Positions 14,281 to 39,507 of a stretch of 64,000 nucleotides of DNA are shown here, piece after piece. The stretch's first letter is position 1, and every line of letters starts with the position of its first letter. The position numbers were made by a program, and so were the translations under genes. The DNA comes from Oleomonas cavernae (lineage in GTDB: Bacteria; Pseudomonadota; Alphaproteobacteria; Zavarziniales; Zavarziniaceae). The notes under the pieces were generated by a model, which worked only from the letters and a program-made list of their open reading frames with translations, ran no database searches and was not told the DNA's origin. The DNA lies in NCBI RefSeq assembly GCF_003590945.1, contig NZ_QYUK01000011.1, positions 3,752,909-3,816,908 of the forward strand, read 5' to 3'.

Positions 14281-14410
14281 GCTTAGCGTCATCCTCCTCT
14301 TTTTTGTTCATGACCAAGCAGTGGAGAATGAATTTTGCGTCGACGGCACTAGGATCTTCGATTGTCGCCCCTCTCGATTCGCCTCGAAGGGCGGCCCTTC
14401 CAACGACAGA

Positions 14411-18188: not shown

Positions 18189-19876
18189 ATGAGAAGGCGG
18201 GTGACCAAAGAGGGAATTACAATAAATGCGGTGGCTGGATGCCATGTTGTACTGCTGGGATTCAATATTACTCAGGCTAAACGAGCCGGCCTGCGTGGTT
18301 TCGCAATTCGCCGAACCGACCCTACAGAGCAAGAAGTTTATTGGATGAAAGGAGTGAAAACCTTCCGCTCTGTCGAGGCCCACCCTGCCGCCGGCGAGCA
18401 ATTTTCGAGCCTCCATCACCCGTTTCAATCGTTTCAGTGGGCGGACTATTCTGCCAAGCCGGACCGCGACTACAGCTATGAAATTGTCCCGATGTATGGC
18501 GAGCCAGGCACGCTCACCAAGGGCAAGTCCGTCACCGTGACCGTTCACACCGAACCGGTGGAGGCCGTCGATCACAGCGTTTTCTTCAATCGTGGCTCCG
18601 TCGCCACCCAGGAATATGCCCGCCGTTTCCAGAACAAGTGGCCCGGGATCGCCGGTCCGGGGCCTATGAATGGCTGTCGCGCGGATTGCTCGAAGGCGTA
18701 ATCGCCTTCATTACCCGCGCTGAAGACGATTCGTGGGGATTGAAGGGAGCTTTCTACGAATTCCAGTGGCCGGCGGTTCTTGAGGCACTGCGGGCCGCCA
18801 AGGGACGCGGCGCGGACGTCGAAATCGTGTTCGACGATATCGAGAACGCCAGCGGACCCAGGGCAAAAAATGAAGCTGCCATCAAGGCCGCAAAGATCAA
18901 GGGGCTCTGTGTTCCGCGCCGGAACGGCACGTTGATGCACAACAAATTCCTGGTCTTGACCAAGGATGGTCGGGCCAAGGCCTTGCTCTTCGGCTCCACC
19001 AACCTGACGGAAAACGGCATCTTCGGGCATGCCAATTGCGTCCACATCGTCGAGGATGCCGACGTCGCAAAAAAGTATCTTCAGTATTTCGAGATGCTGC
19101 GAGGCGACCCGGAACCGGCCGCGGACAAATCCGACTACAAGCTGAAGACAGTTGACCTGTCACCGGCGCCGCTTCCCCTTGCCGCAAACAGCATGAATCC
19201 GGTGTTCTCGCCGCGCACCGATGTGAGCGCTCTCGAGTGGTATGCAAAACTGGCAGGCGAAGCCGGCCGAGGCTTGTTCATGACTTTCGCCTTCGGCATG
19301 AACTCGCTCTTCCGAACGGTCTTTGCCCGGGATGACGACGTGCTCCGAATGGCGCTGATGGAGAAGGAGTGGACCGGCAGGAACAAGGAGGCGCAGATCG
19401 CGGCTATTCGCGAACTGCAACGCCGCCCGAATGTCGTGATCGCCATTGGCAATCACATCCCGCTGACCGGCTTCGACCAATGGCTCGCCGAAATCGAACG
19501 TATCATAAAGCACGTCAACATCCATTGGGTTCACACCAAGTTCATGCTGATTGACCCACTGTCGGACGAACCGATCGTCGTCACCGGTTCAGCCAACTTC
19601 AGCGATGCAAGCACCAAGACCAATGACGAAAACATGCTCGTCATCAATGGCAGTCAGCGCGTCGCGGACATCTACTTGGGTGAGTTTTTCCGGCTGCATT
19701 CGCACTATGCCTTCCGCCAGGCGGTGAGTATCTTCCTGAGCAACAATCCAGACAAGACCCCGGAGGATTTCGCCCAACGATTCCTCACCGAGGATGGGGA
19801 CTGGACAATCGACTATTTTACACCAAACGACCGGAACGGCCGATACGCTCGCCGGAAATACTTCTCTGGATCCTAA
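18189..19876 (+). pseudogene. Phospholipase D-like protein with two HKD motifs, interrupted by one apparent -1 frameshift
   Basis: The gene starts at an ATG with GGAGGG upstream (MRRRVTKEGITIN). The first frame, about 150 codons, is a beta-sandwich-like domain ending NRGSVATQEYARRFQNKWP. The frame then shifts and continues as AYEWLSRGLLEGVIAF to the stop at 19876. Adding one G to the CCCGGG at 18642 or the GGGG at 18659-18662 restores a single reading frame of about 562 codons. The phospholipase D/nuclease signature occurs twice: HNKFLVL with GSTN (about 18938-19003), and HTKFMLID with GSANFSD (about 19532-19600). Both copies keep His, Lys and the Gly-Ser step, so the active site would be complete. 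Members cut phosphodiester bonds in lipids or DNA; the substrate here is unknown. It may be intact if the missing base is a sequencing artefact. Confidence 0.8.
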
Positions 19877-21504: not shown

Positions 21505-22552
21505 ATGCCGTTGAAAAGCTATGCGGTGCTTAAAGGACGCCCGATCAGCAACCGCCTCGCATCGGGTGCAAGCCCACACTATCAGGTTCTTGTTTCAGAA
21601 AACGGTACACTGCATCGCATTGCCGTAAATGTCCGCTCGCAGGACGGCAGCGAGGTCGAGTTTCTCGTTAGGTCGCGGTTCGAGCACCCAATTACGGAAA
21701 GTCTCGCAGCGCTGCCTGAAGGGTTACACCCGATCGTCAGCCGCCCGGGGGAATAGCGTTGGACTTCATTCGCGGCAACCTCATGCAACCGTGGGAGTTG
21801 AAACCGCTTCCGCTGTCAGCGGCGGGCCCAGACAACGATCTCAACGAGAAGATCGATGCCTATGTGCAACGTGCGATGTCAGACGAAGAATCCATGATTT
21901 ACGCCTTCGGCGAAACCTGGGGGCCCGAACACGACAAAGCGGACAGGTATTTCGGGTTCAAGCCCGGTCGGGGCATTCATGACATCCACTTCAATCAAGG
22001 AAATCCGCCCGGACCTTTCGCAGGCCAGAATGCCCCTTATCAGGACGGGGGCTGATTCTGGAATTTCCTAAGGATGGGCAATGGGTAGCGATATTTCTGA
22101 AGTTCCAGACGCAAGCTTGGCATTCGAGTGATGCTGACGGATCGACCATTATCCGCGCCGATAGCGACTTCCCCGCAGCGCCGCACACACCTGTCAACCG
22201 CGACCACATCCCTCCGCTCGACGTGCCAGATGGACTTATTCGCATCATTGCGGCTTATGTGAACGACGTGAAGACGCCGGAGCGAGAAACCGTCACTCTG
22301 CTTAATACCGCTGATATCCCGATCGACCTTGCCGGCTGGACAATCAAGGACAAGCAGAAGAATAGCTTGCCACTCAGTGGTTCGATAGCCGCGGGTACAA
22401 CGAAGATAATCGAGATTGATACACCGGTTACTTTATCCAACAAAGGCGGGATTATCACGCTATTAAACGCCCAGGGCGTCAAGGTACATGGTGTTTCCTA
22501 TACCAAAGAGGAGGCAAGGCAGCCTGGTCGGACGATTCCCTTCCAGAACTGA
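21505..22552 (+). pseudogene. DUF2278 protein with C-terminal lamin-tail domain, interrupted by two apparent -1 frameshifts
   Basis: It starts at an ATG preceded by GGAGGAAG. The first frame (MPLKSYAVLKGRPISNRLAS) is the canonical DUF2278 opening and stops at 21756. The second frame resumes as IALDFIRGNLMQPWEL and stops at 22055 after NAPYQDGG. The third gives LILEFPKDGQWVAIFLKFQT and ends with a lamin-tail domain (GLIRIIAAYVND, then LLNTADIPIDLAGWTIKD). Each break falls in a five-G run, 21747-21751 and 22047-22051, and one extra G at each yields an uninterrupted protein of about 349 residues. DUF2278/lamin-tail proteins are uncharacterised; lamin-tail domains in bacteria accompany secreted nucleases. 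The full continuity of family motifs suggests the gene is functional in the organism. Confidence 0.85.
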
Positions 22553-25086: not shown

Positions 25087-25698
25087 ATGCGGGAACGTGA
25101 ATCGGCATTTTCGATTTTGGCCAGCGTGCGGCGGCGCCGGCGGCGCCAGCGGCTGGCTACGTGGTTTCGTCGCTGGTGGCCGGCATTCGCATTCGGCATC
25201 CCCTTAGGCGTGGCTGCCGGCCTGGTGTTGGTCGATCCCGCACCCATGTTGGCAGTCTTCGAACCCGGCCCGCCTACACCGCCTGGTGCCGTGGTCGGGC
25301 GGGCGTCCGTCGTCGATGGCGACACGATCGAGATCCACGGCGAGCGGATCAGGATGTTCGGCATCGATGCCCCCGAAAGCGGGCAGCTCTGCCAGGACGC
25401 CAAGGGCAGCGACTACCGTTGCAGTCAGCAGGCCGCCAACCACCTAGATGGCCTGATCGGCTGGTCTACGGTCTCTTGCGAGGGAAGTGAGCGGGATCGA
25501 TACGGCCGGTTGATCGCGACTTGCACGGCCCGTGGGCAAGACCTCAGCGAGAAGATGGTCCGCGACGGCTGGGCGATGGCCTTCACGCGGTACTCATCAC
25601 GCTATGTCGGCGCCGAGGCTGCCGCGAAGGCGGCCGGCAACGGGATCTGGACCGGCAGCTTCACGCCGCCTTGGGAATGGCGCGAAGCCCACAGGTAG
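25087..25698 (+). CDS. Membrane-anchored thermonuclease (SNase-like) family protein
   Basis: The product has 203 residues. An Arg-rich cytoplasmic start (RRRRRRQR) is followed by one hydrophobic segment (about 32-50), so the catalytic part faces the periplasm. The SNase-like domain covers about 68-195: VVDGDTIEI, then RIRMFGIDAPES and ERDRYGRL. By family comparison Arg89, Glu97 and Arg141 correspond to the catalytic Arg-Glu-Arg of staphylococcal nuclease, with Asp77 and Asp79 positioned for calcium. It probably degrades extracellular or periplasmic DNA/RNA. The gene is convergent with the small operon at 25727-26857. Confidence 0.88.
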   Translation: MRERESAFSILASVRRRRRRQRLATWFRRWWPAFAFGIPLGVAAGLVLVDPAPMLAVFEPGPPTPPGAVVGRASVVDGDTIEIHGERIRMFGIDAPESGQLCQDAKGSDYRCSQQAANHLDGLIGWSTVSCEGSERDRYGRLIATCTARGQDLSEKMVRDGWAMAFTRYSSRYVGAEAAAKAAGNGIWTGSFTPPWEWREAHR

Positions 25699-27053: not shown

Positions 27054-27428
27054 ATGTTGGGTTGCGAATTCATCGACACCAACGGTGATGATGTCTCTGT
27101 CATCGCTGCGGAAGACCTTGTCCGCGTTGATATCAAGGTCCATTCCCTCTCCGTCATAAGGCGAGCCTGCTATTCACTAGCGGCCGACTGTTGGTTCTGG
27201 ATCCGGGACGACGATGACAATCATGTCGTTGTCGAGATCGCTCGGCGCCAAGCTGACAGCGACCTGCTTTTAGTCAGGCGGCGGTTGGGTCAGGCCCTAA
27301 TCGACTTCGGCATCCGGCAACGCATCGAGGATGCTTCCGCCGAGGTACGATCGGTGTTGATTTCGGCCGCGTTGGCAGAGGCCCGGGGTTCGCGGCGCGC
27401 GATGTCGGACGAGGACCAAACACCGTGA
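27054..27428 (+). CDS. hxsD: HxsD, His-Xaa-Ser system small protein
   Basis: The product has 124 residues. It carries the HxsD pattern: conversion from a beta-strand start (DLVRVDIKVHSLSVIRRACY) to SLAADCWFWIR, an acidic turn, then a C-terminal helix with LGQALIDFGIRQRIED and SVLISAALAEA. HxsD accompanies HxsB and HxsC in every complete His-Xaa-Ser locus and has no known catalytic activity; it may present the precursor to the maturases, as RiPP recognition proteins do. The stop overlaps the GTG start of hxsB. It leads the operon, with its promoter in the 197 bases shared with the caspase-like gene. Confidence 0.85.
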   Translation: MLGCEFIDTNGDDVSVIAAEDLVRVDIKVHSLSVIRRACYSLAADCWFWIRDDDDNHVVVEIARRQADSDLLLVRRRLGQALIDFGIRQRIEDASAEVRSVLISAALAEARGSRRAMSDEDQTP

Positions 27429-28933
27429 CATCTGGGCGTCCAATCTTTGATGACCTCAGCGCGTTTTCCCCGCGGGGCCCGTATCAGTTGGCGCCTTTGC
27501 GCTTCGATGTCCTGCCGGACGCCAGTGACAGGGTGATTCTGACGTCGGAAGCAGGCGATTTCCTGATCACGGATCGAGATGCCCTCGGTCAACTGGTTGA
27601 TGGCCGCTTGGATTTGGAGAACGAGCTTGCTGAGGCCCTGGTGGCGCGGCAAATGCTCTTCGTCGGCGATGCCGCCTCCCAGGCCGTATCCGCGGTACGA
27701 TATCGCAGCCGTAAGTCATTTATCCGGGGCGGACCGTCACTGCACCTTTTCGTGGTCACATTGCGGTGTGACCACTCGTGCCCTTACTGCCAAGTCTCTC
27801 GACAAGCCGATGGTGCCGATCGTCGATTCGACATGACCCAGGAGACGGCCGCTGGCGCGATCGACCTGTTGTTCTCGTCACCCAGCCCAAATCTGACTGT
27901 CGAGTTTCAGGGCGGAGAACCGCTGCTCAATTTCGACATGATCCGCTGGATCACGGAGAAAATCGCCACACGCAACCTCATTGAGAAGCGCGAGATTACG
28001 TTCGCGATCACCACAACACTGCATCATGCCGACGACGGCATGCTGGCTTTCATGCGGGAACACAAGTTTGAGGTCTCAACCTCCCTCGATGGGCCAGCCG
28101 AGCTTCACAATCTCAACCGCCCCCTCAAATCAGGCGATAGCTATGCCAGAACGACCGACGGCATCGAGCGAGCAAGAGCGGTTTTAGGGCCCGACAAGAT
28201 ATCGGCCCTGGTCACGCTGACGACGGAAAGCCTGAAGGCGCCCGAAGCGATCATCGACAGCCACCTTACCCTCGGCTTCCGATCGATCTTCCTTCGGCCG
28301 CTGAGCCCATTCGGCTTCGCCATCAAGGCAAAGCGCCGAATCGGCTATCAGGTGGACCAGTTTCTCGAATTTTATGGGCGAGCAATCGCCTACATGATCA
28401 AACTCAACGGCCGCGGCATTGAGGTCAGCGAGGCCTATGCTTCAATGCTCCTCGCTAAGATCATGACGCCTTACGCCCAAGGATACGTAGATTTGCGCTC
28501 GCCGTCGGGCGCTGGCCTGGGAGCGCTGGTCTACAACTACGATGGCTTCGTCTATCCCTCGGACGAGGCGCGGATGCTTGCAGAGATGGGGGACCGGAGC
28601 CTGGCCCTTTGCCGCGCCACCGACTCCTACGCCGCGCTCATGGCTTCGGCGCCGATGCAGATGCTTCTCCTCTCTGGGGTAGCAGAAAGCCTGCCCGGCT
28701 GCAGCGACTGCGCCTACCTTCCCTATTGCGGTGCTGACCCGATCCATGAATTGGCGACGCAAGGAGACCCAGTCGGGCATCGGGCGTTCAGCGATCACTG
28801 CCGGCGCCACATGGGCATATTCCGGCTGCTCTTCCGATACCTCGCCTCCGGCGACCACGAGGTGCTCGGCATTCTCCGCCGTTGGGCAACCCAATACATG
28901 GGCATCGAGCCCGGTCAGGCAGCGCCCCGATGA
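27425..28933 (+). CDS. hxsB: HxsB, His-Xaa-Ser system radical SAM maturase
   Basis: The product has 502 residues from a GTG overlapping the hxsD stop. An N-terminal beta domain (1-100) comes before the radical SAM core. Cys115, Cys119 and Cys122 in LRCDHSCPYC bind the 4Fe-4S cluster, and FQGGEPLLNF is the SAM-contacting GGEP motif. The C-terminal part has Cys residues in GCSDCAYLPYCGADP plus a later DHCRRH, a SPASM-like region expected to bind auxiliary iron-sulfur clusters, as in peptide-modifying maturases. HxsB is the first of a paired set of radical SAM enzymes thought to modify the His-Xaa-Ser protein HxsA. The chemistry of the modification is not established to my knowledge. Confidence 0.93.
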   Translation: MTSGRPIFDDLSAFSPRGPYQLAPLRFDVLPDASDRVILTSEAGDFLITDRDALGQLVDGRLDLENELAEALVARQMLFVGDAASQAVSAVRYRSRKSFIRGGPSLHLFVVTLRCDHSCPYCQVSRQADGADRRFDMTQETAAGAIDLLFSSPSPNLTVEFQGGEPLLNFDMIRWITEKIATRNLIEKREITFAITTTLHHADDGMLAFMREHKFEVSTSLDGPAELHNLNRPLKSGDSYARTTDGIERARAVLGPDKISALVTLTTESLKAPEAIIDSHLTLGFRSIFLRPLSPFGFAIKAKRRIGYQVDQFLEFYGRAIAYMIKLNGRGIEVSEAYASMLLAKIMTPYAQGYVDLRSPSGAGLGALVYNYDGFVYPSDEARMLAEMGDRSLALCRATDSYAALMASAPMQMLLLSGVAESLPGCSDCAYLPYCGADPIHELATQGDPVGHRAFSDHCRRHMGIFRLLFRYLASGDHEVLGILRRWATQYMGIEPGQAAPR

Positions 28934-30111
28934 ATTTGCCCTTGCATGGTTTCGGTGCGGTTGCCGGCGGCTGGCCAAACCTCCCGCTGAAGGCTTTGTC
29001 CCTGCGCGAGGCCCTCGCCCTCGAGTATCCGCTGCAAAGGGTAGCAGTCCTGGTGGGGCCTCACGAGAATGTCGCCGACACTACCCTTCGTGCGATCGGC
29101 GCTGCGGCCGTTGTCAGGGGTGAACCGGAGGTCGAAACAGGCCTGCCGACCCTTTCCCGCCTATCAGCAGACGGCCTGCTGAATTCAGGCGATGTATTTC
29201 GCGTCCGGCCCGACAATGGGCGCGTCAGCGTCCTCTATCGGCGCGGCGCCAATGCCAACTCGCTGCTGGTGACCGAGCGCTGCAACAGTCCGTGCCTCAT
29301 GTGCAGCCAGCCGCCGCGACCGGAGGATGACGGGTGGTTGATCGGTGAGCTGCGCGACATCATTCCCCTGATCGATCAGGATTTGCCCTCCCTTGGCCTA
29401 ACGGGCGGCGAGCCGACCTTGCTCGGTGAACGGTTGGCCGAACTGCTTGCCCTTGCGAGGCAGTGGCTCCCCAACACGGGCATTCATATACTATCCAACG
29501 GGCGGACTTTCTCAGATCCGCGCGCCTGTGAAAGTTTCGACGGCACGCAGCAACAGGTAACTTGGGGAATTCCACTCTATGGGGCCGTACCTTGGCGCCA
29601 CGATCACATCGTCCAAGCCCGAGGTGCATTCGATCAGACCATCAGCGGCTTGCTCAATCTTGCAGAGCGTGGTCATGCCGTCGAGATCAGGGTCGTACTT
29701 CATCGGCTGACCGCCGATCACCTCTTCGAGATAGCTGGCTTCATCCAGCGTTGCCTGCCCTTTGCGATCCATGTCGCGTTCATGGGGCTTGAGCCCATGG
29801 GCTACGCAAAGATGAACCGAGAACTCCTCTGGATCGACCCAATTGACCTAGCGCCGGCACTCACCGAGGCGATCGAACACCTCGATATCCATGGGATCCG
29901 TGCCTCGATCTACAACCTGCCACTTTGCCTGCTCCCTGCCGGCTTACGCCGCTTCGCGCGACAAAGCATTAGCGACTGGAAGAATGTATTTGATGCTGCT
30001 TGTTCCGACTGCGTCGCCCGTGCGCATTGCTGCGGTTTCTTTGCCTCAACCGGACCTGCTTGGCGTAGCCGTGGCCTCAAGCCGTTGTCGATCGAGGAGT
30101 TCGTTCGATGA
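28930..30111 (+). CDS. hxsC: HxsC, His-Xaa-Ser system radical SAM maturase
   Basis: The product has 393 residues; its ATG overlaps the hxsB stop (ATGA). The radical SAM cluster ligands are Cys118, Cys122 and Cys125 in TERCNSPCLMCSQPPRP, the characteristic HxsC motif, followed by LGLTGGEPTLL. The C-terminal end has SDCVARAHCCGFFAS with further Cys residues. An N-terminal domain of about 110 residues is unassigned. With HxsB it forms the paired maturase set; whether the two act on the same residues or sequentially is unknown. It is translationally coupled to hxsA. Confidence 0.93.
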   Translation: MNLPLHGFGAVAGGWPNLPLKALSLREALALEYPLQRVAVLVGPHENVADTTLRAIGAAAVVRGEPEVETGLPTLSRLSADGLLNSGDVFRVRPDNGRVSVLYRRGANANSLLVTERCNSPCLMCSQPPRPEDDGWLIGELRDIIPLIDQDLPSLGLTGGEPTLLGERLAELLALARQWLPNTGIHILSNGRTFSDPRACESFDGTQQQVTWGIPLYGAVPWRHDHIVQARGAFDQTISGLLNLAERGHAVEIRVVLHRLTADHLFEIAGFIQRCLPFAIHVAFMGLEPMGYAKMNRELLWIDPIDLAPALTEAIEHLDIHGIRASIYNLPLCLLPAGLRRFARQSISDWKNVFDAACSDCVARAHCCGFFASTGPAWRSRGLKPLSIEEFVR

Positions 30112-30716
30112 AACGACGCGATTGGTTGCAGTATCTGAAGCGGATCATCAATTGGACTGTTCCGACGGCGACGCTGGCGTCGAGCATTTGGACCCCAGCC
30201 GCAGCTGTGGGAACCATCGCAGTGCCGACGCTGGAGGACAACAGAGATAGACGGGATCCGCTGTCACTGACGGTCCCGCACCGTGTAGACGGGCCGGAGC
30301 TCTATGCCCGGCACTCAAGCCATCGCAGCCACCGAAGCCATAGTAGTCATAGCAGCCACAGCTCGCATTACTCATCGAGCGGAGGGGGATACTACACGCC
30401 GTCGCCCCTTCCTCCGCCCACATATTCCCCACCGCCACCTCCAACCTATTCACCGCCAACATCGAAAGGTACCCCCACGCCGCTGACGCCTACACCGCGG
30501 GATACAACTCCTCGGGCAGGACAAGTGGATGCTACGATTATGACGATGAGGGTTCAGGTTGAGTTGACACGCCTGGGATACTATTTTGGCAAGATTGACG
30601 GTATCGTGGGCACCGAGCTTCGGATTTCGCTTCGAAATTTTCAGCGGCATGAGGGACTTGCTGTCAGCGGTGCCATCGACAACGCGACGTTGAGTAGGCT
30701 CGGCCTGTCCAATTGA
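30108..30716 (+). CDS. hxsA: HxsA, secreted His-Xaa-Ser repeat protein with peptidoglycan-binding domain
   Basis: The product has 202 residues; its ATG overlaps the hxsC stop. Residues 1-33 resemble a secretion signal (two Arg early, then a hydrophobic stretch ending TPAAA). Residues 69-89 are seven consecutive His-Xaa-Ser triplets (nt 30312-30374), the presumed target of the radical SAM maturases. A Pro/Thr/Tyr-rich linker follows, with SPPPPPTYSPP. Residues about 140-202 form a PG_binding_1 domain (VQVELTRLGYYFGKIDG, then LRNFQRHEGLAVSG). The protein would therefore be modified in the cytoplasm, exported and held on peptidoglycan. Function is unknown; the His/Ser array could bind metal or carry a crosslink. 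Confidence 0.93.
   Translation: MKRRDWLQYLKRIINWTVPTATLASSIWTPAAAVGTIAVPTLEDNRDRRDPLSLTVPHRVDGPELYARHSSHRSHRSHSSHSSHSSHYSSSGGGYYTPSPLPPPTYSPPPPPTYSPPTSKGTPTPLTPTPRDTTPRAGQVDATIMTMRVQVELTRLGYYFGKIDGIVGTELRISLRNFQRHEGLAVSGAIDNATLSRLGLSN
30312..30374 (+). repeat. Seven tandem His-Xaa-Ser codon triplets in hxsA
   Basis: Seven 9-base units encode His-x-Ser, the second position being Ser, Arg or Tyr. His alternates between CAC and CAT and Ser among TCA, TCG, AGC and AGT, so the repeat is kept at protein level rather than being a recent DNA duplication. Confidence 0.9.
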
Positions 30717-31235: not shown

Positions 31236-31291
31236 GCGGGCCGGGTGGGCGGATAAACCTGCCGGTCACCCTCTCGGCATCGGGGTTGCGA

Positions 31292-33157
31292 TCAAAATTG
31301 AAAGGCGAGTGAAAACTCGACATTGTCCATTTGCTGGCCGAGACCGATGATGCCTTGCTCCGGGTCCGCCTCGAAATGCGTGACCTCGATACGCGGGCGC
31401 CAATTGTCGCCGAAGTAGTTGAAGTCCACGCGCTGCCGCACACCCCATGCCTGATTCTGGAAGTCATACAGGCCCAAAGTCTCGACCGCGAGCTTGCCGT
31501 CATCGAAATTGTGGCTGAGGAGAAGGGTCGCGTAGTTCTGGACCGGGTGAAGCTTGGCACCATAGGCGGCATAGGGGGCCTGGAACAGCAGATCCTCGCC
31601 GTTCGGCGTGATGACGGTGAACAGCTGGACACTGGTGAAGACACTCGTGTCCTGCCCCTCCCAGAAGGGCAGCCACAGGAAATAGTCGGCACCGATCATG
31701 AAGGAGATCTGGTCTCGCTTTGTCACGCTGCGTGGCGGATCGACGATCAGCGCAGCGCTCCCTTCCACTTCGTTGCCGAACATCGTGACGGTGCGCGATC
31801 GATTGAAGGGCTTGTCGAATTCATAGCTGAACTCGGCGCGTAACACCGGCGTGATCTCCTTCGGCCCCATCGGCAACTCGGCCATGTCGCGGGTATAGCT
31901 GGCGCCGACCAGTTTGCGGCGATAGCGATAGTCCAGATCGAATTGCACATTGACGGAGCAAAGAGGACCGGCACCGCCGGGGCAGCCCAAAATCGCCTGG
32001 GCTCCTTCGGCCGTTGGACTGCCGGAACCAAGATAGGGAATGTAGGCACCCTGGACGACGGCCTCGGTGATCTCGCTGCCGAGCGGAACCGTTACCATTG
32101 CATTCCCGCCGTCGTTCAGGGCATTGCCGACAACGACGGTGGCCCCTGCCAACTTGATAATTGGCAGTTCCTGATAGGCATAGAGTGCGTTGAGCGTCGC
32201 TTCGCCCCCTAAAACCTCGAACTTGAAGCGCGCACCGAGTGTCGGTTCTTCAAAGCCGAACCGATCGGGCTCCCGATCCGTCAGATGCGCCCCCACGAAC
32301 GGGATCCCGGCACCCGATGCCTTGTCCGCCAGGAGGGGAAACGGCAGACCATACAGGCCGCCCGAGGTGGCATCGTCGGGCGTCGGGTTGTTGATGATGA
32401 ACCGGTCGCGATGGTACTCCGGCATATAGATAAGCTCGAGCTTGGGCGCACGGATGCCCACCGCCTCAAAGGCGTCGCCCAGGCCCAACCTGGCGAGATC
32501 GATATCGCCTGCCACCATCCAGCTCGCGATACGGCTCTCATCAGGGTCACCGAGAATAAATTTCTGTCGCAGATCCTGTGCATGCAGCACGTCGAGCAGG
32601 CGGATACCGTCGGACTGGCCCCATGCCCTGACGAACTTGCCGACTTTCAGGGCGTACAGGTTTTCCGGGTCGGTGAACTTGACGGCCGCCTCGTGAATCA
32701 CCTCGTCGTTGAAGTCGGAGAGGAATCGGTTCTGGCTGTCGCTGCTGCCGAATGGATCGTGAGCAGGGCTGGGCAACGGACCGGCGGGCCGGCCAGCGCC
32801 CCGCTCGTTGAGGTGATAGGCAAACCTGTCGGTAAAACCGGGCGAGGCATAATCCTGAAGGCCAGGTGCGGTCAGATCACCCCCCAGATCCGAATACCAA
32901 TCGCCGCGCAGCCAAAAATCCCCGGTCACCGTGACATTGTCATGCGGCCGCCAGCTGGTGCTGAGCTCGACCAGATAATTCATCTGTCCGATTTCGGCGC
33001 CGCCGCCAACCTGGCTCTTGTCATAGGCGACGGCCACCCCCTGCTTCACGCGGCCCCCGACGGTAAAGTCATCGCCGATGGTGACCTCGGCCCGCGCGCA
33101 AGGTGATAGCCCCGCGATCAGCGCCAGGGCACTCGTGGCCACGAACAACTTTTTCAT
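31292..33157 (-). CDS. DUF1302 family outer-membrane-type protein
   Basis: The product has 621 residues from MKKLFVATSALALIAG, with a signal peptide ending near PCARA. The start at 33157 is preferred over in-frame 33184 because it begins the signal. DUF1302 features include GGRVKQG near the start, NVTVTGDFWLRGDWY, and GKFVRAWGQSDGIRLLDVL, with repeated beta strands ending in a terminal Phe, typical of outer-membrane beta-barrels. These proteins occur with DUF1329 in bacteria degrading hydrocarbons, sterols or aromatics and are thought to take up hydrophobic substrate. A paralogue sits at 52689-54587. It has its own promoter region (33158-33380) and follows the paa operon terminator. Confidence 0.85.
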   Translation of the reverse strand: MKKLFVATSALALIAGLSPCARAEVTIGDDFTVGGRVKQGVAVAYDKSQVGGGAEIGQMNYLVELSTSWRPHDNVTVTGDFWLRGDWYSDLGGDLTAPGLQDYASPGFTDRFAYHLNERGAGRPAGPLPSPAHDPFGSSDSQNRFLSDFNDEVIHEAAVKFTDPENLYALKVGKFVRAWGQSDGIRLLDVLHAQDLRQKFILGDPDESRIASWMVAGDIDLARLGLGDAFEAVGIRAPKLELIYMPEYHRDRFIINNPTPDDATSGGLYGLPFPLLADKASGAGIPFVGAHLTDREPDRFGFEEPTLGARFKFEVLGGEATLNALYAYQELPIIKLAGATVVVGNALNDGGNAMVTVPLGSEITEAVVQGAYIPYLGSGSPTAEGAQAILGCPGGAGPLCSVNVQFDLDYRYRRKLVGASYTRDMAELPMGPKEITPVLRAEFSYEFDKPFNRSRTVTMFGNEVEGSAALIVDPPRSVTKRDQISFMIGADYFLWLPFWEGQDTSVFTSVQLFTVITPNGEDLLFQAPYAAYGAKLHPVQNYATLLLSHNFDDGKLAVETLGLYDFQNQAWGVRQRVDFNYFGDNWRPRIEVTHFEADPEQGIIGLGQQMDNVEFSLAFQF

Positions 33158-33383
33158 CGTTTCCCCCAATTTTAACGCGATCACAACACGACACCTGAAT
33201 GCCAGTGTAATCGATTGGATATCAGCAGCCTGACATCATTTCATTCGGGATCAGTTACGCCCACATCGGACGCATTTTCAACGAAACAGAATGGTTAATG
33301 CTGCCGAAATTTGTCTTATGCTGCTGGGGAATAGATAGAACCTGTAGCGGTCCTGAGAACTCTTGCGTGCCTTTGGGCGAAGC

Positions 33384-33429
33384 AAAAAAATGCCCGTGCA
33401 AGCGAAGATAATTTTCGCTTGCACGGGCA
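33384..33429 (-). terminator. Strong rho-independent terminator of the paa operon
   Basis: On the minus strand a perfect 16-bp stem (33429-33414 with 33406-33391, 7-base loop) is followed by seven Ts. It lies 56 bases after the paaJ stop and ends the paaZ-to-paaJ transcript. Confidence 0.93.
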
Positions 33430-33484
33430 GTTGAACACCGGTCGAGGAGAGTGGAGTAACCGGTGCGAATACGTGCTTGCCGGA

Positions 33485-34690
33485 CTAGGGCCGTTCCAGC
33501 ACCATGGCGATACCCTGACCGACGCCGATGCACATGGTGCACAGGGCCCGCCGGGCATCGCGCAGGCCCAGTTCGATCGCGGCGGTCAGCGCGAGACGGG
33601 CACCGCTCATGCCCAGGGGATGGCCCAGCGCGATGGCACCGCCATTGGGGTTGACGTGGTCGGCATCGTCCGGCAGGCCCAGTTCACGCAGCACGGCCAG
33701 GCCCTGGGCCGCGAAGGCCTCGTTCAGCTCGACCACGTCGATCTCGCCGATGCCAAGCTTGAGCCGCTGCAGCAATTTCTGCGAGGCGGGCGCCGGGCCG
33801 ATCCCCATGACGCGGGGCGGCACGCCGGCCGTGGCGGCGCCCAGGATCCGGGCCCGGGGGGTGAGGCCATATTTTACGATCGCCTCGGCCGAGGCGATGA
33901 TCACGGCCGCGGCCCCGTCATTGACGCCAGATGCATTACCAGCCGTTACACTGCCGCCGTCGCGGAACGGCGTGCCCAGCTTGGCCAGTCCTTCAAGGGT
34001 CGTATTACGCCTGGGATGCTCGTCATCCTTGACGACGATCGAGGCCCCCTTCTTGCCGGGCAGCGTGACGGGAACAATCTCGGCAGCAAAACGGCCGGAT
34101 TCGATCGCGGCCACGGCGCGCTGCTGTGACCGCAAGGCAAAGACGTCCTGATCGGCACGGTTGACCTGGTAATCGGCCGCGACATTCTCGGCCGTCTCGG
34201 GCATCGAATCGATGCCGTACTGGCGTTGCAGCAGCTTGTTGACGAAGCGCCAGCCGATGGTGGTGTCATAGACCGCGTTGTCGCGGGAAAACGCGCTGGC
34301 AGCCTTGGGCATCACGAAGGGTGCCCGGCTCATGCTCTCGACCCCGCCGGCGACGAAGAGTTCGCCGTCCCCGGCCTTCACCGCCCGCGCGGCCATGGCA
34401 ATCGCATCGAGGCCCGAACCGCACAATCGGTTGACCGTGGTGCCCGAGACCTTCTCGCCCAGGCCGCCCAGCAGGACGGCCATGCGCGCCACATTGCGGT
34501 TGTCTTCGCCCGCCTGGTTGGCGCAGCCCAGGATGACATCGTCGACCGCGTCCCAGTCGACGCGGGGATTGCGTTCGACCAGGGCCTTGAGCGGCAGGGC
34601 TGCCAGGTCATCTGCCCGCACCCCGGACAGGGCACCGGCATAGCGGCCGATCGGGGTACGAATACCGTCGCAGAGAAAGGCATCAGTCAT
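33485..34690 (-). CDS. paaJ: 3-oxoadipyl-CoA thiolase
   Basis: The product has 401 residues from MTDAFLCDGIRTPIGRY; an in-frame TTG at 34702 is less likely. It is a thiolase of the PaaJ/PcaF type: NRLCGSGLDAIAMAAR holds the acyl-accepting Cys, and the C-terminal motifs NPNGGAIALGHPLG and CTMCIGVGQG supply the His and second Cys. In the Paa route it cleaves 3-oxoadipyl-CoA to succinyl-CoA and acetyl-CoA, the last beta-oxidation step. It may also act on the ring-cleavage C8 intermediate, as in E. coli. It is the last gene of the operon, eight bases after paaI. Confidence 0.93.
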   Translation of the reverse strand: MTDAFLCDGIRTPIGRYAGALSGVRADDLAALPLKALVERNPRVDWDAVDDVILGCANQAGEDNRNVARMAVLLGGLGEKVSGTTVNRLCGSGLDAIAMAARAVKAGDGELFVAGGVESMSRAPFVMPKAASAFSRDNAVYDTTIGWRFVNKLLQRQYGIDSMPETAENVAADYQVNRADQDVFALRSQQRAVAAIESGRFAAEIVPVTLPGKKGASIVVKDDEHPRRNTTLEGLAKLGTPFRDGGSVTAGNASGVNDGAAAVIIASAEAIVKYGLTPRARILGAATAGVPPRVMGIGPAPASQKLLQRLKLGIGEIDVVELNEAFAAQGLAVLRELGLPDDADHVNPNGGAIALGHPLGMSGARLALTAAIELGLRDARRALCTMCIGVGQGIAMVLERP

Positions 34691-34698
34691 GGCGGCGA

Positions 34699-35127
34699 TC
34701 AACTTTCTGGCAGAACACTGGATTTCAGGGCAGCGGACTGGCCGCGAAAACTCGCCACCGTCCGGCCGTCGCCGGCAGTGACGGACACGTCGTAAATGCC
34801 ATTGCGCCCGGCCGAGGCGATTTCCGTCGCCGTCGCGACGAGGCGTTCGCCCAGGCGCGCCGGCGTCAGGTAGGTAATCGTGCAGCTTTGCCCTACGGTC
34901 GCGACATTGCGGGCATTGCAGGCAAAGGCGAAGGCGCTGTCGGCCAGGGTGAAGATCATCCCGCCGTGAACGGTGCCGTGGCCGTTGACCATCCGCTCGC
35001 CCGCCACCATCGCGACCACGGCCCGGCCCGGGCCCATGGCCTCGATCTCCAGGCCCAGGGACTGCGAGGCCGCATCCTGTGCCAGCATCGCCTGGGCGCA
35101 GGCCCAGGCCAGGGCCGTCGGCTCCAC
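34699..35127 (-). CDS. paaI: PaaI-type hydroxyphenylacetyl-CoA thioesterase
   Basis: The product has 142 residues. It is a hot-dog fold thioesterase with the family signature NGHGTVHGGMIFTLADSAFA; the Asp of LAD and the HGG turn are the catalytic elements. PaaI hydrolyses stalled or wrong CoA esters such as hydroxyphenylacetyl-CoA and frees CoA. It sits between paaG and paaJ with almost no spacing, confirming its place in the operon. Confidence 0.93.
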   Translation of the reverse strand: MEPTALAWACAQAMLAQDAASQSLGLEIEAMGPGRAVVAMVAGERMVNGHGTVHGGMIFTLADSAFAFACNARNVATVGQSCTITYLTPARLGERLVATATEIASAGRNGIYDVSVTAGDGRTVASFRGQSAALKSSVLPES

Positions 35128-35129
35128 GG

Positions 35130-35924
35130 CTAGCGGCCCTGGAACCGGGCCGGGCGCTTGTTCAGGAAGGCATTGACGCCTTCGCGATAGTCCGCCGTCC
35201 GGCCCAGGCGCTGCTGCTCGTCGCGTTCAAGATCCAACTGTTCGTCGAGCGTATTGGTCGAGGACACCAGCAAGGCCTGCTTGATCGCCGCCAGGGCCGC
35301 GGTGGGCTGCTTCGCCAGGTGGCGGCCCAGGGTTGCCGCTTCGTCCAGCAACTTGTCGTCGTCGACCACTTTCCAGATCAGGCCCCAGGCCAGGGCGGTT
35401 TCCGCCGGCAGCACGTCGCCCAGCAGGGCGAGGCCGGCAGCGCGGGCCTGGCCCACCAGCCGCGGCAAGATCCAGGTGCCGCCGCAATCGGGCAGCAGCC
35501 CGACCCGGCAGAAGGCTTGCGAGAACTTGGCCGAGCGCCCTGCGATCACGATATCCGCCGCCAGCGCGATATTGGCCCCCGCCCCCGCCGCGATCCCATT
35601 GACCGCGGCAATGATGGGCAGGGGCAGCCGGCGCAACCGGCGCAGCAGGGGATTGTAATAGGTGCTGATGGTCGCCCCCAGGTCCGGCGGCGCCTCGCCC
35701 GGGGCGGTCGCCCGGTCGGACAGATCCTGGCCCGCGCAAAAGCCGCGGCCCGCACCGGTCAGGACCACGCTGCGGATCGTGGCGTCGCCTTCGATCGTAT
35801 CGAGGTGAGCGGCCAGGACCTCGTGCATCGCGACATTGAAGGAATTGATCTTGTCGGGGCGGTTCAGGGTCAGCGTAGCCACGCCATCTGCCCTGTCCAA
35901 CAGGACCGGTTGCTCTTGCGCCAT
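35130..35924 (-). CDS. paaG: 1,2-epoxyphenylacetyl-CoA isomerase
   Basis: The product has 264 residues from MAQEQPVLLDRADGVATLTL; GGGGAGGGAAC lies upstream of this ATG. It is a crotonase-fold enzyme: GRGFCAGQDLSD and NGIAAGAGANIALAADIV form the oxyanion hole, and FSQAFCRVGLLPDCGGTWIL carries the catalytic Asp. It rearranges the ring-1,2-epoxide of phenylacetyl-CoA to the oxepin, and in beta-oxidation shifts the double bond of dehydroadipyl-CoA. The PDCGG rather than PEGG motif and the operon position mark it as PaaG rather than a hydratase. Confidence 0.92.
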   Translation of the reverse strand: MAQEQPVLLDRADGVATLTLNRPDKINSFNVAMHEVLAAHLDTIEGDATIRSVVLTGAGRGFCAGQDLSDRATAPGEAPPDLGATISTYYNPLLRRLRRLPLPIIAAVNGIAAGAGANIALAADIVIAGRSAKFSQAFCRVGLLPDCGGTWILPRLVGQARAAGLALLGDVLPAETALAWGLIWKVVDDDKLLDEAATLGRHLAKQPTAALAAIKQALLVSSTNTLDEQLDLERDEQQRLGRTADYREGVNAFLNKRPARFQGR

Positions 35925-35946
35925 GATCGTTCCCTCCCCAGGGATT

Positions 35947-37011
35947 TTAGTGTTGATGATCGAAGTCGACGACGACGCGGTCACCGGCCGGGTAGCTCTG
36001 ACAGGTCAGGATGTAACCCCTGGCGATTTCATAGTCTTCCAGCCCGAAGTGGACATCCATGTCGACCTCGCCTTCGACGACATGGGCACGGCAGGTCGAA
36101 CAGACCCCGCCCTTGCACGAATAGGGCAGCTCGACCCCCTGGCGCAGGGCCGCGTCGAGGATGGTCTCCCCTCCCCTGTCGATTTCAAATTCCCGCGCGC
36201 GGCCGTCAATGATCGCCGTCGCGTGAATGCCCGGGCCGGCTTGCACGGGGCGCGGGGCGCGCACCGGCTGGTCCGTCCCGAACAGTTCCGCCTTGATGCT
36301 GGTGCGCGGGATGCCGTGTTCTTCCAACACGGTCAATACCGAGCGGGTCATCGCCTCGGGACCGCAGACGAAGACCCCGTCCACATCGCCCACCGGGATC
36401 CAGCGGGCAAACAGCTCGGCACATTTGTCGGCGTCGATGCGGCCGTTGAACAGGTCGATGTCCTGCTGCTCCCGGCTCATGATGTAGATCAGGTTGAGTC
36501 GCTCCAGGTAGAGATCCTTGAGATCGCCGAGTTCCTGGCCGAACAGCACGCTGGAAGAGGAACGGTTGCCATAGACCAGTGTGAAGCGGCTGCCCGGCTC
36601 GGCAGCCAGCGTGGTCTTCATGATCGACAGAATCGGCGTGATGCCGCTGCCGGCCGCGAGAGCCAGATAGTGCCGCCGGGCAGCCGGCTCCAGGGGCATG
36701 TGGAAACGGCCCTCGGGCGGTGCCACATCAAGAAAAGCACCCGGCTTGAGCATTTCCTGCGCCCAGCTCGAAAACACGCCGTCGGCCACGCGCTTGATGG
36801 CGACCCGCAGCTGGCTGTCCTGCACGCCGGAGCAGATCGAATAGCTGCGCCGAACCCCCTCGCCGCCGATGGTGGTTCGCAGCGTCAAATACTGACCCTG
36901 AATGAACCGGTAGTCGGCGGCCAGCCCCTCCGGCACGTCGAAGGTGACAACGACCGCATCCCGCGTTTCCCGCTGGATGTCCTTGACCTTCAGTTGGTGG
37001 AACTGGCTCAT
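35947..37011 (-). CDS. paaE: Phenylacetyl-CoA epoxidase reductase subunit
   Basis: The product has 354 residues from MSQFHQLKVKDI; longer readings upstream overlap paaD out of frame and are rejected. The N-terminal half is an FAD domain (YSICSG), then an NAD(P)H domain (LALAAGSGITPILSIMK, later GPEAMTRSVL). The C-terminal plant-type ferredoxin domain has CKGGVCSTC and a later Cys in ILTCQSYP that bind 2Fe-2S. PaaE passes electrons from NADPH to the PaaABCD oxygenase complex that epoxidises phenylacetyl-CoA. Confidence 0.95.
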   Translation of the reverse strand: MSQFHQLKVKDIQRETRDAVVVTFDVPEGLAADYRFIQGQYLTLRTTIGGEGVRRSYSICSGVQDSQLRVAIKRVADGVFSSWAQEMLKPGAFLDVAPPEGRFHMPLEPAARRHYLALAAGSGITPILSIMKTTLAAEPGSRFTLVYGNRSSSSVLFGQELGDLKDLYLERLNLIYIMSREQQDIDLFNGRIDADKCAELFARWIPVGDVDGVFVCGPEAMTRSVLTVLEEHGIPRTSIKAELFGTDQPVRAPRPVQAGPGIHATAIIDGRAREFEIDRGGETILDAALRQGVELPYSCKGGVCSTCRAHVVEGEVDMDVHFGLEDYEIARGYILTCQSYPAGDRVVVDFDHQH

Positions 37012-37018
37012 CTTGTTC

Positions 37019-37492
37019 TCAATGACATTTGAAGTGGTCGAAGGGTTCCAGGCAGGCCTCGCAACGATAGAGCGCCTTGCAGGGCGTCGAGCCGAACCGG
37101 CTGAGCAAGGCTGTCCTGGACGAGCCGCAGCGCGGGCAGGCGATCGCCGGGGGCAACGGGCAGCCCACCGCGCTCGGCGGTGCAATGCCGTAGTGCAGCA
37201 GGGCTTCGCGACCGCGTGGGGTCAGCCAGTCCGTGGTCCAGGCCGGGGCCAGGCTGGTCTCGACCGACACTTGGTCGACGCCATGGCTGACCAGGGCCTC
37301 GCGCACATCGCGGGCGATCACCTCGGTGGCCGGACAGCCGGAATAGGTCGGCGTGATCGTCACTTTGATCGTCTCGCCCCTGGTTTCGACGGCGCGGACA
37401 ATGCCAAGATCGACGACGGACACGACCGGAATTTCCGGGTCCATCACCTCGTCCAGCCATTGCCAGACCTGCGCTGTCGACACCGCGGTCAC
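37019..37492 (-). CDS. paaD: Phenylacetate degradation protein PaaD (Fe-S assembly, DUF59/MIP18-type)
   Basis: The product has 157 residues. The N-terminal half is a DUF59 domain (LDEVMDPEIPVVSVVDLGIV, then TPTYSGCPATEVI with its conserved Cys). The C-terminal half is a zinc-ribbon-like element with CPRCGS and CEACL. PaaD is needed for maturation of the epoxidase, probably in iron insertion or Fe-S handling. It overlaps the end of paaC. Confidence 0.93.
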   Translation of the reverse strand: MTAVSTAQVWQWLDEVMDPEIPVVSVVDLGIVRAVETRGETIKVTITPTYSGCPATEVIARDVREALVSHGVDQVSVETSLAPAWTTDWLTPRGREALLHYGIAPPSAVGCPLPPAIACPRCGSSRTALLSRFGSTPCKALYRCEACLEPFDHFKCH

Positions 37493-38235
37493 CAGCGTGC
37501 TCCCGGGAAACTACGCGGGATGTGCTGCATCTCGGCCAGGAGATAGCCCATGTGCTCGCTGTGTTCGCCGCGCCGACCGCCGCTGCGCATCCAGGCATCG
37601 GCCGGGACGGGCAAGGTCGCCTTGGCGAGAACCGCGCCTACCGTGCCCTGCCAGGCGGCCCGCAGGCCACGGGGATCGCAGGCGACCCCGGTTGCGGCCA
37701 GTTCCAGATCGACCGCATCGGCCTCGAACATCTCGCCCGTGAAGGACCAAAGGCGGCCCAGGGCGCGCTGTATCCGGTCGCGGCTATAGGCCGTGCCGTC
37801 CCCTAAGCGAACAATCCAGGCCGAACTGTGCGAGAGGTGATAACGCGCCTCCTTGAGCGACTTGGCGGCGATCGCCGCGATCCGCGGCTCGGTCGAGGCG
37901 CACAGGGCGGTCAGCAATTCGTTGTGCCAGGCGTCAAACAGAAACTGGCGCGCCATGGTATCGGCGAAGTCGCCATTGGGCTGCTCGACCAGCAGGAGAT
38001 TGCGGAATGCCCGCTCGTCGCGCAGGAAGGCCAGGGTGTCTTCGTCACGGCCGGCACCTTCAACCTCGGCCGCCAGCGACAGCCACAGCCGCGCCTGGCC
38101 GATCAGGTCCAGCGCGATATTGGCGGTGGCGATGTCTTCTTCCAGCACCGGGCCGTGACCGGTCAGGGCGCCAAGCTGCTGCCCTAGAACCAAGGTATTG
38201 TCGCCCAGCCGCAGCAGATATTCGAAAAGTGCCAT
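37489..38235 (-). CDS. paaC: Phenylacetyl-CoA epoxidase structural subunit
   Basis: The product has 248 residues, a ferritin-like helical protein beginning MALFEYLLRLGDNTLVLGQQ with DIALDLIGQARLW-type segments (here IATANIALDLIGQARLWLSL). PaaC pairs with PaaA to stabilise the oxygenase but lacks a full diiron site. The ATG is ten bases after the paaB stop, and its end overlaps paaD. Confidence 0.94.
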   Translation of the reverse strand: MALFEYLLRLGDNTLVLGQQLGALTGHGPVLEEDIATANIALDLIGQARLWLSLAAEVEGAGRDEDTLAFLRDERAFRNLLLVEQPNGDFADTMARQFLFDAWHNELLTALCASTEPRIAAIAAKSLKEARYHLSHSSAWIVRLGDGTAYSRDRIQRALGRLWSFTGEMFEADAVDLELAATGVACDPRGLRAAWQGTVGAVLAKATLPVPADAWMRSGGRRGEHSEHMGYLLAEMQHIPRSFPGARW

Positions 38236-38244
38236 AATCTGCCC

Positions 38245-38529
38245 CTACATATGCTTCACGCCATTGGGCAGGTTATAGAAGGTCGGATGGCGATAGACCT
38301 TGGAGCGGGCAGGATCGAACAGGGCGTCCTTGTCGCCCGGCTGGCTGGCCACGATGTCGGCGGCCTTCACCACCCAGATGCTCATGCCCTCGTTACGCCG
38401 GGTGTAGACGTCGCGGGCATTGCCCAGCGCCATTTCGGCATCGACGGCGCGCAGGCTGCCGACATGCTTGTGGGCCAGGCCATGGCTGCTGCGAATGAAC
38501 ACTTCCCAAAGGGGCCACTCGGTCATCAC
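38245..38529 (-). CDS. paaB: Phenylacetyl-CoA epoxidase subunit B
   Basis: The product has 94 residues, starting [20 protein letters not shown], with the family [20 protein letters not shown] and a C-terminal [10 protein letters not shown]. PaaB is a small alpha/beta protein bridging PaaAC heterodimers in the oxygenase. Its start overlaps the paaA stop. Confidence 0.95.
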
Positions 38530-39506
38530 GCTGCATTCCTCTGCTTCATGGCATGGGCCATGGCCGCCTCGCGCACCCAGGCGCCCTTTTCCCAGGCCTC
38601 CACCCGCGTGGCCAGACGTTCACGGTTACAGGGACCGTCACCCTTGACCACCCGGTAGAACTCGTCCCAGTCGATCGGGCCGATCTCGTGGTGGCCGGTT
38701 TCCGCATTCAGGGACAGCGCCGGATCGGGAATGGTCAGCCCGATCAGGTCGGCCTGCGGCACCGTCTGGTCGATGAATTTCTGGCGCAGGTCGTCATTGC
38801 CGTGGAGCTTGATCTTCCAGGCGGCGGATTGCGCGCCGTGGACGGACTCGCCGTCGGGCGGCCCGAACATCATCACCGCCGGCCACCACCAGCGGTTCAG
38901 CGCGTCCTGCGCCATCCGCTTCTGGGCCTGCGTCCCCGCGGCCAGCTTGGCCATGATGTCGAAACCCTGGCGCTGGTGGAAACTCTCCTCCTTGCAGACG
39001 CGCACCATGGCGCGGCCATAGGGACCGTAGGAGCAGCGGCACAACGGGATCTGGTTAATGATCGCCGCCCCGTCCACCAGCCAGCCGATGGCGCCGATAT
39101 CGGCCCAGGTCAGGGTGGGATAGTTGAAGATGCTGGAATACTTGGCCTTGCCGCTGTGCAGCGCCTCGATCAGGTCATCACGCGACACGCCCAGCGTTTC
39201 TGCCGCGGCATAGAGGTAGAGACCGTGCCCGCCCTCATCCTGCACCTTGGCCAACAAGGTCGCCTTGCGTTGCAGGGAAGGCGCCCTCGTGATCCAGTTG
39301 CCTTCTGGCAGCATGCCGACGATTTCCGAATGGGCGTGCTGGGAAATCTGCCGCACCAGGGTCTTGCGATAGGTCTCGGGCATCCAGTCCTGGGGCTCGA
39401 TCCGGACGCCGGCATCGATCCGCTCCTGGAAGGCGCGCTCGTCGCCCTCGAGTTCCTGCGCGGTGCGCAACCGCTCGACGCCGGTATCGACCATCTGTGC
39501 GTACAT
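38526..39506 (-). CDS. paaA: Phenylacetyl-CoA epoxidase catalytic subunit
   Basis: The product has 326 residues, a ferritin-like diiron oxygenase: [24 protein letters not shown] and [12 protein letters not shown] supply the Glu/His ligands. It epoxidises the ring of phenylacetyl-CoA at C1-C2 using oxygen and electrons from PaaE. It starts one base after the paaZ stop. Confidence 0.96.
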
Positions 39507-39507
39507 G

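Follow-up and report, generated by a model that had tools for sequence, protein, structure and literature searches.

A His-Xaa-Ser cassette in Oleomonas cavernae and the comparative anatomy of its two radical SAM enzymes and repeat-bearing partner

The 64,000-nucleotide stretch of the Oleomonas cavernae genome analysed here (the window) carries a four-gene operon, hxsD-hxsB-hxsC-hxsA, that belongs to the His-Xaa-Ser (Hxs) system, a widespread radical S-adenosylmethionine (SAM) system without a known product. Comparison with approximately 100 homologous loci leads us to propose that Hxs is probably a protein-maturation cassette, in which the enzymes HxsB and HxsC act on an array of His-Xaa-Ser triplets in HxsA. 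The comparison of these relatives narrows how Hxs could work, and its useful part is this comparative anatomy rather than the present copy, which on sequence grounds is an ordinary new representative of a known, named system. The motif and the predicted maturases HxsB and HxsC are credited to Haft and Basu (PMC9062424); an earlier reading of the window made from sequence alone (the sequence-only reading) had presented Hxs as little described, and this holds for function but not for naming, as the families have been in the NCBI models since Haft and Basu.

Results

The window encodes a complete, translationally coupled Hxs operon

All four window proteins exceed the NCBIfam equivalog cut-offs of their families (Table 1), and the window copy shares all four genes, the repeat and the proteobacterial gene order with other Hxs systems. 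The coordinates and head-to-tail overlaps given in the sequence-only reading are correct, and each of the three junctions is a 4-bp stop/start overlap (GTGA, ATGA and ATGA, in order of transcription); for hxsC, the ATG at 28930 is preferred over the TTG at 28882 of the mechanical open reading frame (ORF) list. Promoter and terminator scans return signal only at about the level of shuffled sequence. That reading's central proposal, a complete system of paired radical SAM maturases with HxsA as their target, draws support from the family models, the operon structure, the perfect co-occurrence of HxsB and HxsC and the invariance of the array His and Ser. Relative to other Hxs copies, the window copy is set apart by a weaker signal-like start of HxsA and by a long terminal branch of its HxsC in a tree of 71 HxsC, and otherwise by nothing distinctive.

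His and Ser of the HxsA array are invariant

Window HxsA contains seven uninterrupted triplets, as previously counted, compared with at most two in succession in 20,000 shuffles of its composition. Among 70 distinct HxsA arrays we find four to eight triplets, most commonly six. Their middle position holds S, R, Y, A, V or G, apart from a single H and a single C, and the array is nearly always preceded by G, A, Q or R and followed by G or S. Within an array, T, A, C and G never take the place of Ser, without exception in more than 400 triplets. Pairwise codon differences within 29 Pseudomonas-type HxsA, whose arrays were chosen by pattern in a way that partly favours zero His and Ser changes, are 880 synonymous and 0 other at His codons and 955 and 0 at Ser codons, against 838 and 176 at the X codons and 4336 and 3760 in the 40 codons preceding the array. 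All six Ser codons occur in the arrays, which argues that the repeat is kept by selection on the protein rather than by copying of a DNA repeat, and no broken array is found among the Pseudomonas loci with arrays displayed.

Periplasmic His-rich arrays often bind metal, and the array could in principle escape modification and serve the envelope as a ligand for metal or in acid-base chemistry, with the maturases acting on another target. The envelope domains of HxsA are in keeping with such a role, but a strict Ser two residues on in each triplet is unexpected for a His-rich metal site, and hxsA shares an operon with the maturases across phyla; we consider this explanation very improbable.

HxsA has a leader-like N-terminus and a lineage-dependent C-terminal domain

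The array begins at residues 51–87 in nearly all well-called HxsA homologues, so that the region before it is near-fixed in length and leader-like. The secretion-type N-terminus described in the sequence-only reading is upheld in part: window HxsA has an Ala-x-Ala motif downstream of a hydrophobic stretch, but this stretch is weak: its best 12-residue hydropathy, 1.04, ranks in the bottom three of the 87 HxsA compared, whose mean is 1.92.

The PG_binding_1 domain at the C-terminus is present as reported. The sequence-only reading had named its absence from most homologues as an outcome that would speak against it; this outcome is not seen, PG_binding_1 being found in 28 of 44 sampled HxsA, while others carry TonB_C or PEGA and many have no such domain. 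These C-terminal domains are, by family assignment, of envelope types. In the tree of 71 HxsC, the order A-D-B-C and a short HxsA occur mainly in a clade of Actinobacteria, Myxococcota, Planctomycetota and Bacteroidota, most members of which lack the peptidoglycan-binding domain, as opposed to the D-B-C-A order of Proteobacteria, with three order changes overall (the order calls for loci L069 and L071 are doubtful). The peptidoglycan-binding domain is thus a lineage trait, mainly of the proteobacterial branch, and not a defining part of the Hxs system; display on the cell wall, as suggested previously, fits the window copy. Two hxsA genes lie near one maturase set in Mycobacterium (locus L080, 3798–4073 and 12210–12497) and in Labilithrix (locus L081, 3665–3913 and 6996–7538).

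HxsB and HxsC each conserve two sets of cysteines

The CxxxCxxC motifs at residues 115–122 of HxsB and 118–125 of HxsC are present as claimed in the sequence-only reading, and to the latter we add four invariant C-terminal Cys. An alignment of 44 HxsB homologues reveals seven invariant Cys (115/119/122 and 426/429/435/459), and 100 of 100 HxsC homologues retain Cys 118/122/125, Cys 333/358/361/367 and an SIS(D)WK motif. From these Cys sets we predict two clusters in each enzyme, one that cleaves SAM and one auxiliary (Aux) cluster. HxsB is present beside HxsC in all 81 loci with room to see it.

The last four Cys of HxsB align with the CxxCx5C...C set of anSMEcpe in a profile alignment to 4k37, a set that we take to be the Aux II ligands, and the Aux I positions are lost, the GxVYPC of anSME being replaced by GxVYPSDE or GxVYASDE. 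HxsB would therefore possess half of a SPASM domain, and the SPASM-like tail of the sequence-only reading stands in this incomplete form. The predicted structure of HxsB (predicted local distance difference test, pLDDT, 89) superimposes through residues 23–475 on residues 1–448 of CteB, N-terminus included (Z 33.3, 389 residues, 3.5 Å), and matches TigE from residue 16 onward (Z 25.1). The N-terminal domain (residues 23–98) has, over residues 25–96, the beta3-alpha3 order of a recognition element (RRE) of ribosomally synthesized and post-translationally modified peptides (RiPPs) and superimposes on the N-termini of CteB and TigE, and leader binding is, on this modelling, probably built into HxsB.

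Together with anSMEcpe, CteB (the SCIFF maturase) is the best fold and sequence match of HxsB and has the N-terminal domain in common with it; CteB differs in forming thioethers from Cys, a residue absent from the HxS array as a pattern, and HxsB lacks the Aux I Cys set. HxsB scores well below the cut-offs of models for cyclophane-forming enzymes (YhhB, 50.2 of 445 bits; GrrM/OscB, 35.8 of 310; FxsB, 33.3 of 370) and also falls outside the anaerobic sulfatase maturases (52.7 of 349.45 bits).

The main rival to a His-Ser link is an oxidation of Ser as in anSME, in which HxsB and HxsC would convert the array Ser to formylglycine, aminomalonate or a related carbonyl that reacts with the neighbouring His or with a partner surface. 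For HxsB, anSMEcpe ranks second both among solved folds (Z 31.5) and among sequence relatives, which is consistent with this chemistry, as is the fact that the array Ser is never replaced. The loss of the anSME Aux I ligands argues against it, and oxidation of Ser leaves unexplained both the equal invariance of His and the constant presence of a second radical SAM enzyme; we regard it as unlikely.

HxsD is a divergent protein with a predicted fold unlike that of stand-alone RREs

An AlphaFold2 model of HxsD (pLDDT 90) has the order beta-beta-alpha-beta-beta followed by one 50-residue helix, a topology that departs from the beta3-alpha3 winged helix of stand-alone, PqqD-like RREs. A Foldseek search of the PDB returns no match to this model at E ≤ 0.001; the highest-ranking rows, at Z 6–8, resemble KH, ferredoxin and aIF2 folds and are not taken here as kin, and a profile match to 2dg7 (0.0014) is unsupported by the fold. 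Few residues are invariant in this very divergent family (Asp84 and Arg88), and short forms of 72–75 residues in a sphingomonad and a rhizobium share the C-terminal motif by eye. HxsD looks like an accessory protein rather than a recognition element. Its gene is undetected by hidden Markov model (HMM) in 13 of 81 loci, mostly those of Caulobacterales and Roseomonas relatives, and a search of all upstream frames in Caulobacterales and Roseomonas finds none, which indicates that the role of HxsD is not universal.

A proposed mechanism for Hxs maturation

We propose that the RRE-like N-terminal domain of HxsB would bind the HxsA leader, and that HxsB and HxsC would act jointly in the cytoplasm on every His-x-Ser triplet, by cross-linking or oxidation, with the small protein HxsD as a partner in those lineages that have it. 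The likeliest class of product would be a link within each triplet, from a His imidazole carbon to the Ser C-beta or from the Ser oxygen to a His carbon, and an array so linked would become a stiff string of small rings. HxsA, which we infer to be the substrate, may then leave the cytoplasm by the general export route of the host, as the cassette is not accompanied by a transporter or protease, and the C-terminal domain of HxsA would hold it in the envelope.

Analogy with characterized maturases makes a His-Ser cross-link the most economical guess, because links from His C2 to C-beta of residue i+2 and from Ser oxygen to His C-beta are both known (PMC11002830); we advance this assignment tentatively, as a possibility to which we give somewhat less than even weight. 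HaaB and ScaB form the former link, and YhhB joins His C2 to Arg C-beta (PMC11002830). These triceptide maturases have in common with Hxs the radical SAM chemistry and a His paired with a residue two positions on (PMC11002830), and His-x-Ser matches the spacing of the triceptide aromatic-x-x motif. They differ in having a single maturase where Hxs has two, and HxsB lies far under the cut-off for YhhB, the one His-type family of this kind tested. In the two-maturase HghB/HghC system, HghC joins a Ser oxygen to His C-beta (PMC11002830). This bicyclostreptin system, HghA/B/C/D, resembles Hxs in its two radical SAM enzymes, small protein and precursor, and in involving Ser and His, which are joined in Hgh (PMC11002830). 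HghD is an RRE, whereas HxsD is predicted not to be one and HxsB has an RRE-like domain of its own; Hgh has one His-Gly-His site and an envelope anchor goes unmentioned in PMC11002830, whereas Hxs has an array and envelope-type domains.

Several observations weigh against the proposed maturation cassette. The signal-like start of window HxsA is weak, the codon comparison is partly biased by the choice of arrays, and hxsD goes undetected in a fraction of loci. HxsB is far from the cyclophane families and is without the anSME Aux I ligands. Full-text searches, with subscription journals mostly outside their reach, return no functional study of any Hxs protein.

The RiPP-like leader-core layout of HxsA and the RRE-like domain of its maturase suggest another possibility, in which an antimicrobial or signal peptide would be excised from the HxsA array and released. 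This, too, we judge very improbable, as genes for a dedicated protease, transporter or immunity protein do not recur and, in most Proteobacteria, the array is in the middle of the protein, with the leader on one side and the anchor on the other.

The maturation model can be tested by co-expression and mass spectrometry, given the list of invariant Cys, the RRE-like domain of HxsB, the near-fixed leader and a repeat that varies only at its middle residue, and the presence of the cassette in E. coli prophages and Klebsiella plasmids makes such a test feasible in E. coli.

Distribution and mobility of Hxs cassettes

A scan of genome contigs with the single window HxsC finds no relatives, and one with an alignment of seven finds 418. 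hxsC occurs in about 2% of the class sample and about 4% of the phylum sample and is absent from the three congeners searched (G042, G169 and G266). Plasmid records with the cassette number 425, of which 327 are from Klebsiella and 341 are conjugative. Of 5426 complete E. coli genomes, 150 carry it, in P2-like prophages adjoining ogr and in ssrA (tmRNA) islands, and it is also present in Leptospira phage LE1. Insertion sequences (IS2, ISVsa5, ISSen4 or IS3) interrupt some of the E. coli copies; in one prophage an IS3-family element splits hxsC (locus L134, 4654–7102). An all-against-all comparison of neighbours reveals no transporter or protease recurring beside hxs across genera, the only recurrent neighbours being those of Pseudomonas synteny and prophage genes. 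In enterobacterial islands a DUF6119 (TIGR04141-like) gene closely follows hxsA (L141, 11084–12694; L142, 11155–12756; L133, 10467–12110), an assignment to loci inferred from position after two members of the domain were matched.

This mobility raises the prospect of a role in defence or exclusion, or as a competitive cargo carried by mobile elements, in which matured HxsA would guard the host envelope against phage or conjugating elements. Strong matches to defence genes lie within about 10 kb of hxs in 6 of 19 genomes (Gabija GajA, a type IV restriction enzyme, Septu PtuA with PDC-S65, AriA-like, PifA-like and a type II-A reverse transcriptase), whereas the control half-set regions match just two models, mad3 and mad8; sample and control are small in this survey and the scans uneven, the second half of the regions having been scanned for chosen proteins only. 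QatD and AbiE lie near hxs on plasmids, and hxs in ssrA islands is accompanied by KwaB-like or ABC-three-component genes. This proximity is suggestive and serves as a lead only: islands gather unrelated cargo, hxs is syntenic in many Pseudomonas, and in PADLOC-DB the window Hxs proteins match only through HxsC and viperin (22.8 bits), weakly and via the shared radical SAM core. We consider a defence or cargo role unlikely, marginally more so than oxidation of Ser. The fullest version of our proposal, in which an obligate maturase pair with single auxiliary clusters makes a string of His-Ser rings on interchangeable envelope anchors, as mobile cargo that excludes phage or plasmids, is less probable again.

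Table 1. Hxs genes and protein features in the window (residue numbers refer to each protein)
Feature	Position	Strand	Description
hxsD	27054..27428	+	124 aa small accessory protein; TIGR03976, 51.9 bits (cut-off 50)
hxsB	27425..28933	+	502 aa radical SAM maturase, GTG start; TIGR03978, 565.8 bits (cut-off 370)
HxsB RRE-like domain, residues 23-98	27491..27718	+	beta-beta-beta-alpha-alpha-alpha in the model; by superposition
HxsB CxxxCxxC, residues 115-122	27767..27790	+	radical SAM [4Fe-4S] site; invariant 44/44
HxsB Cys 426, 429, 435, 459	28700..28801	+	one predicted auxiliary Fe-S site; invariant 44/44
hxsC	28930..30111	+	393 aa second radical SAM maturase; TIGR03977, 365.9 bits (cut-off 267.9)
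HxsC CxxxCxxC in CNxxCLMCSQPP, residues 118-125	29281..29304	+	invariant 100/100
HxsC Cys 333, 358, 361, 367, with SIS(D)WK between	29926..30030	+	predicted auxiliary Fe-S site; invariant 100/100
hxsA	30108..30716	+	202 aa putative substrate protein; TIGR03979, 135.3 bits (cut-off 121.65)
HxsA leader, residues 1-68	30108..30311	+	basic residues at the start, then a stretch of weak hydrophobicity, an AAA motif (near residue 32) and a linker
HxsA His-Xaa-Ser array, residues 69-89	30312..30374	+	seven contiguous triplets, HSSHRSHRSHSSHSSHSSHYS
HxsA PG_binding_1, residues 149-198	30552..30701	+	Pfam PF01471, 45 bits (cut-off 23)

Genes flanking the operon

An SNase-family nuclease gene (25087–25698) lies 1.4 kb before hxsD, and SNase-type nucleases are also found near hxs in a Nostoc plasmid (L117, 9348–9884) and, by eye, in Caulobacter (L024, 3323–4150). 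Downstream, window positions 31269–41414 match the end of a second contig from this genome (G000:C16) at 99.6% identity, which points either to a 10-kb duplication of recent date or to strain variation within the assembly; the break lies approximately 550 bp after hxsA, and on the second contig the DUF1302 gene found here is preceded by type II secretion-like genes. At 21759–22552 a DUF2278-LTD gene seems to have been broken or frameshifted: the DUF2278 match begins at profile position 92 and the Lamin Tail Domain (LTD) is in a separate ORF. Further upstream, a PLD-like protein is encoded at 18638–19876, and two adjacent minus-strand genes (12046–14292 and 14767–16296) encode patatin-like proteins, an assignment made by visual inspection of GGG and GxSGG motifs.

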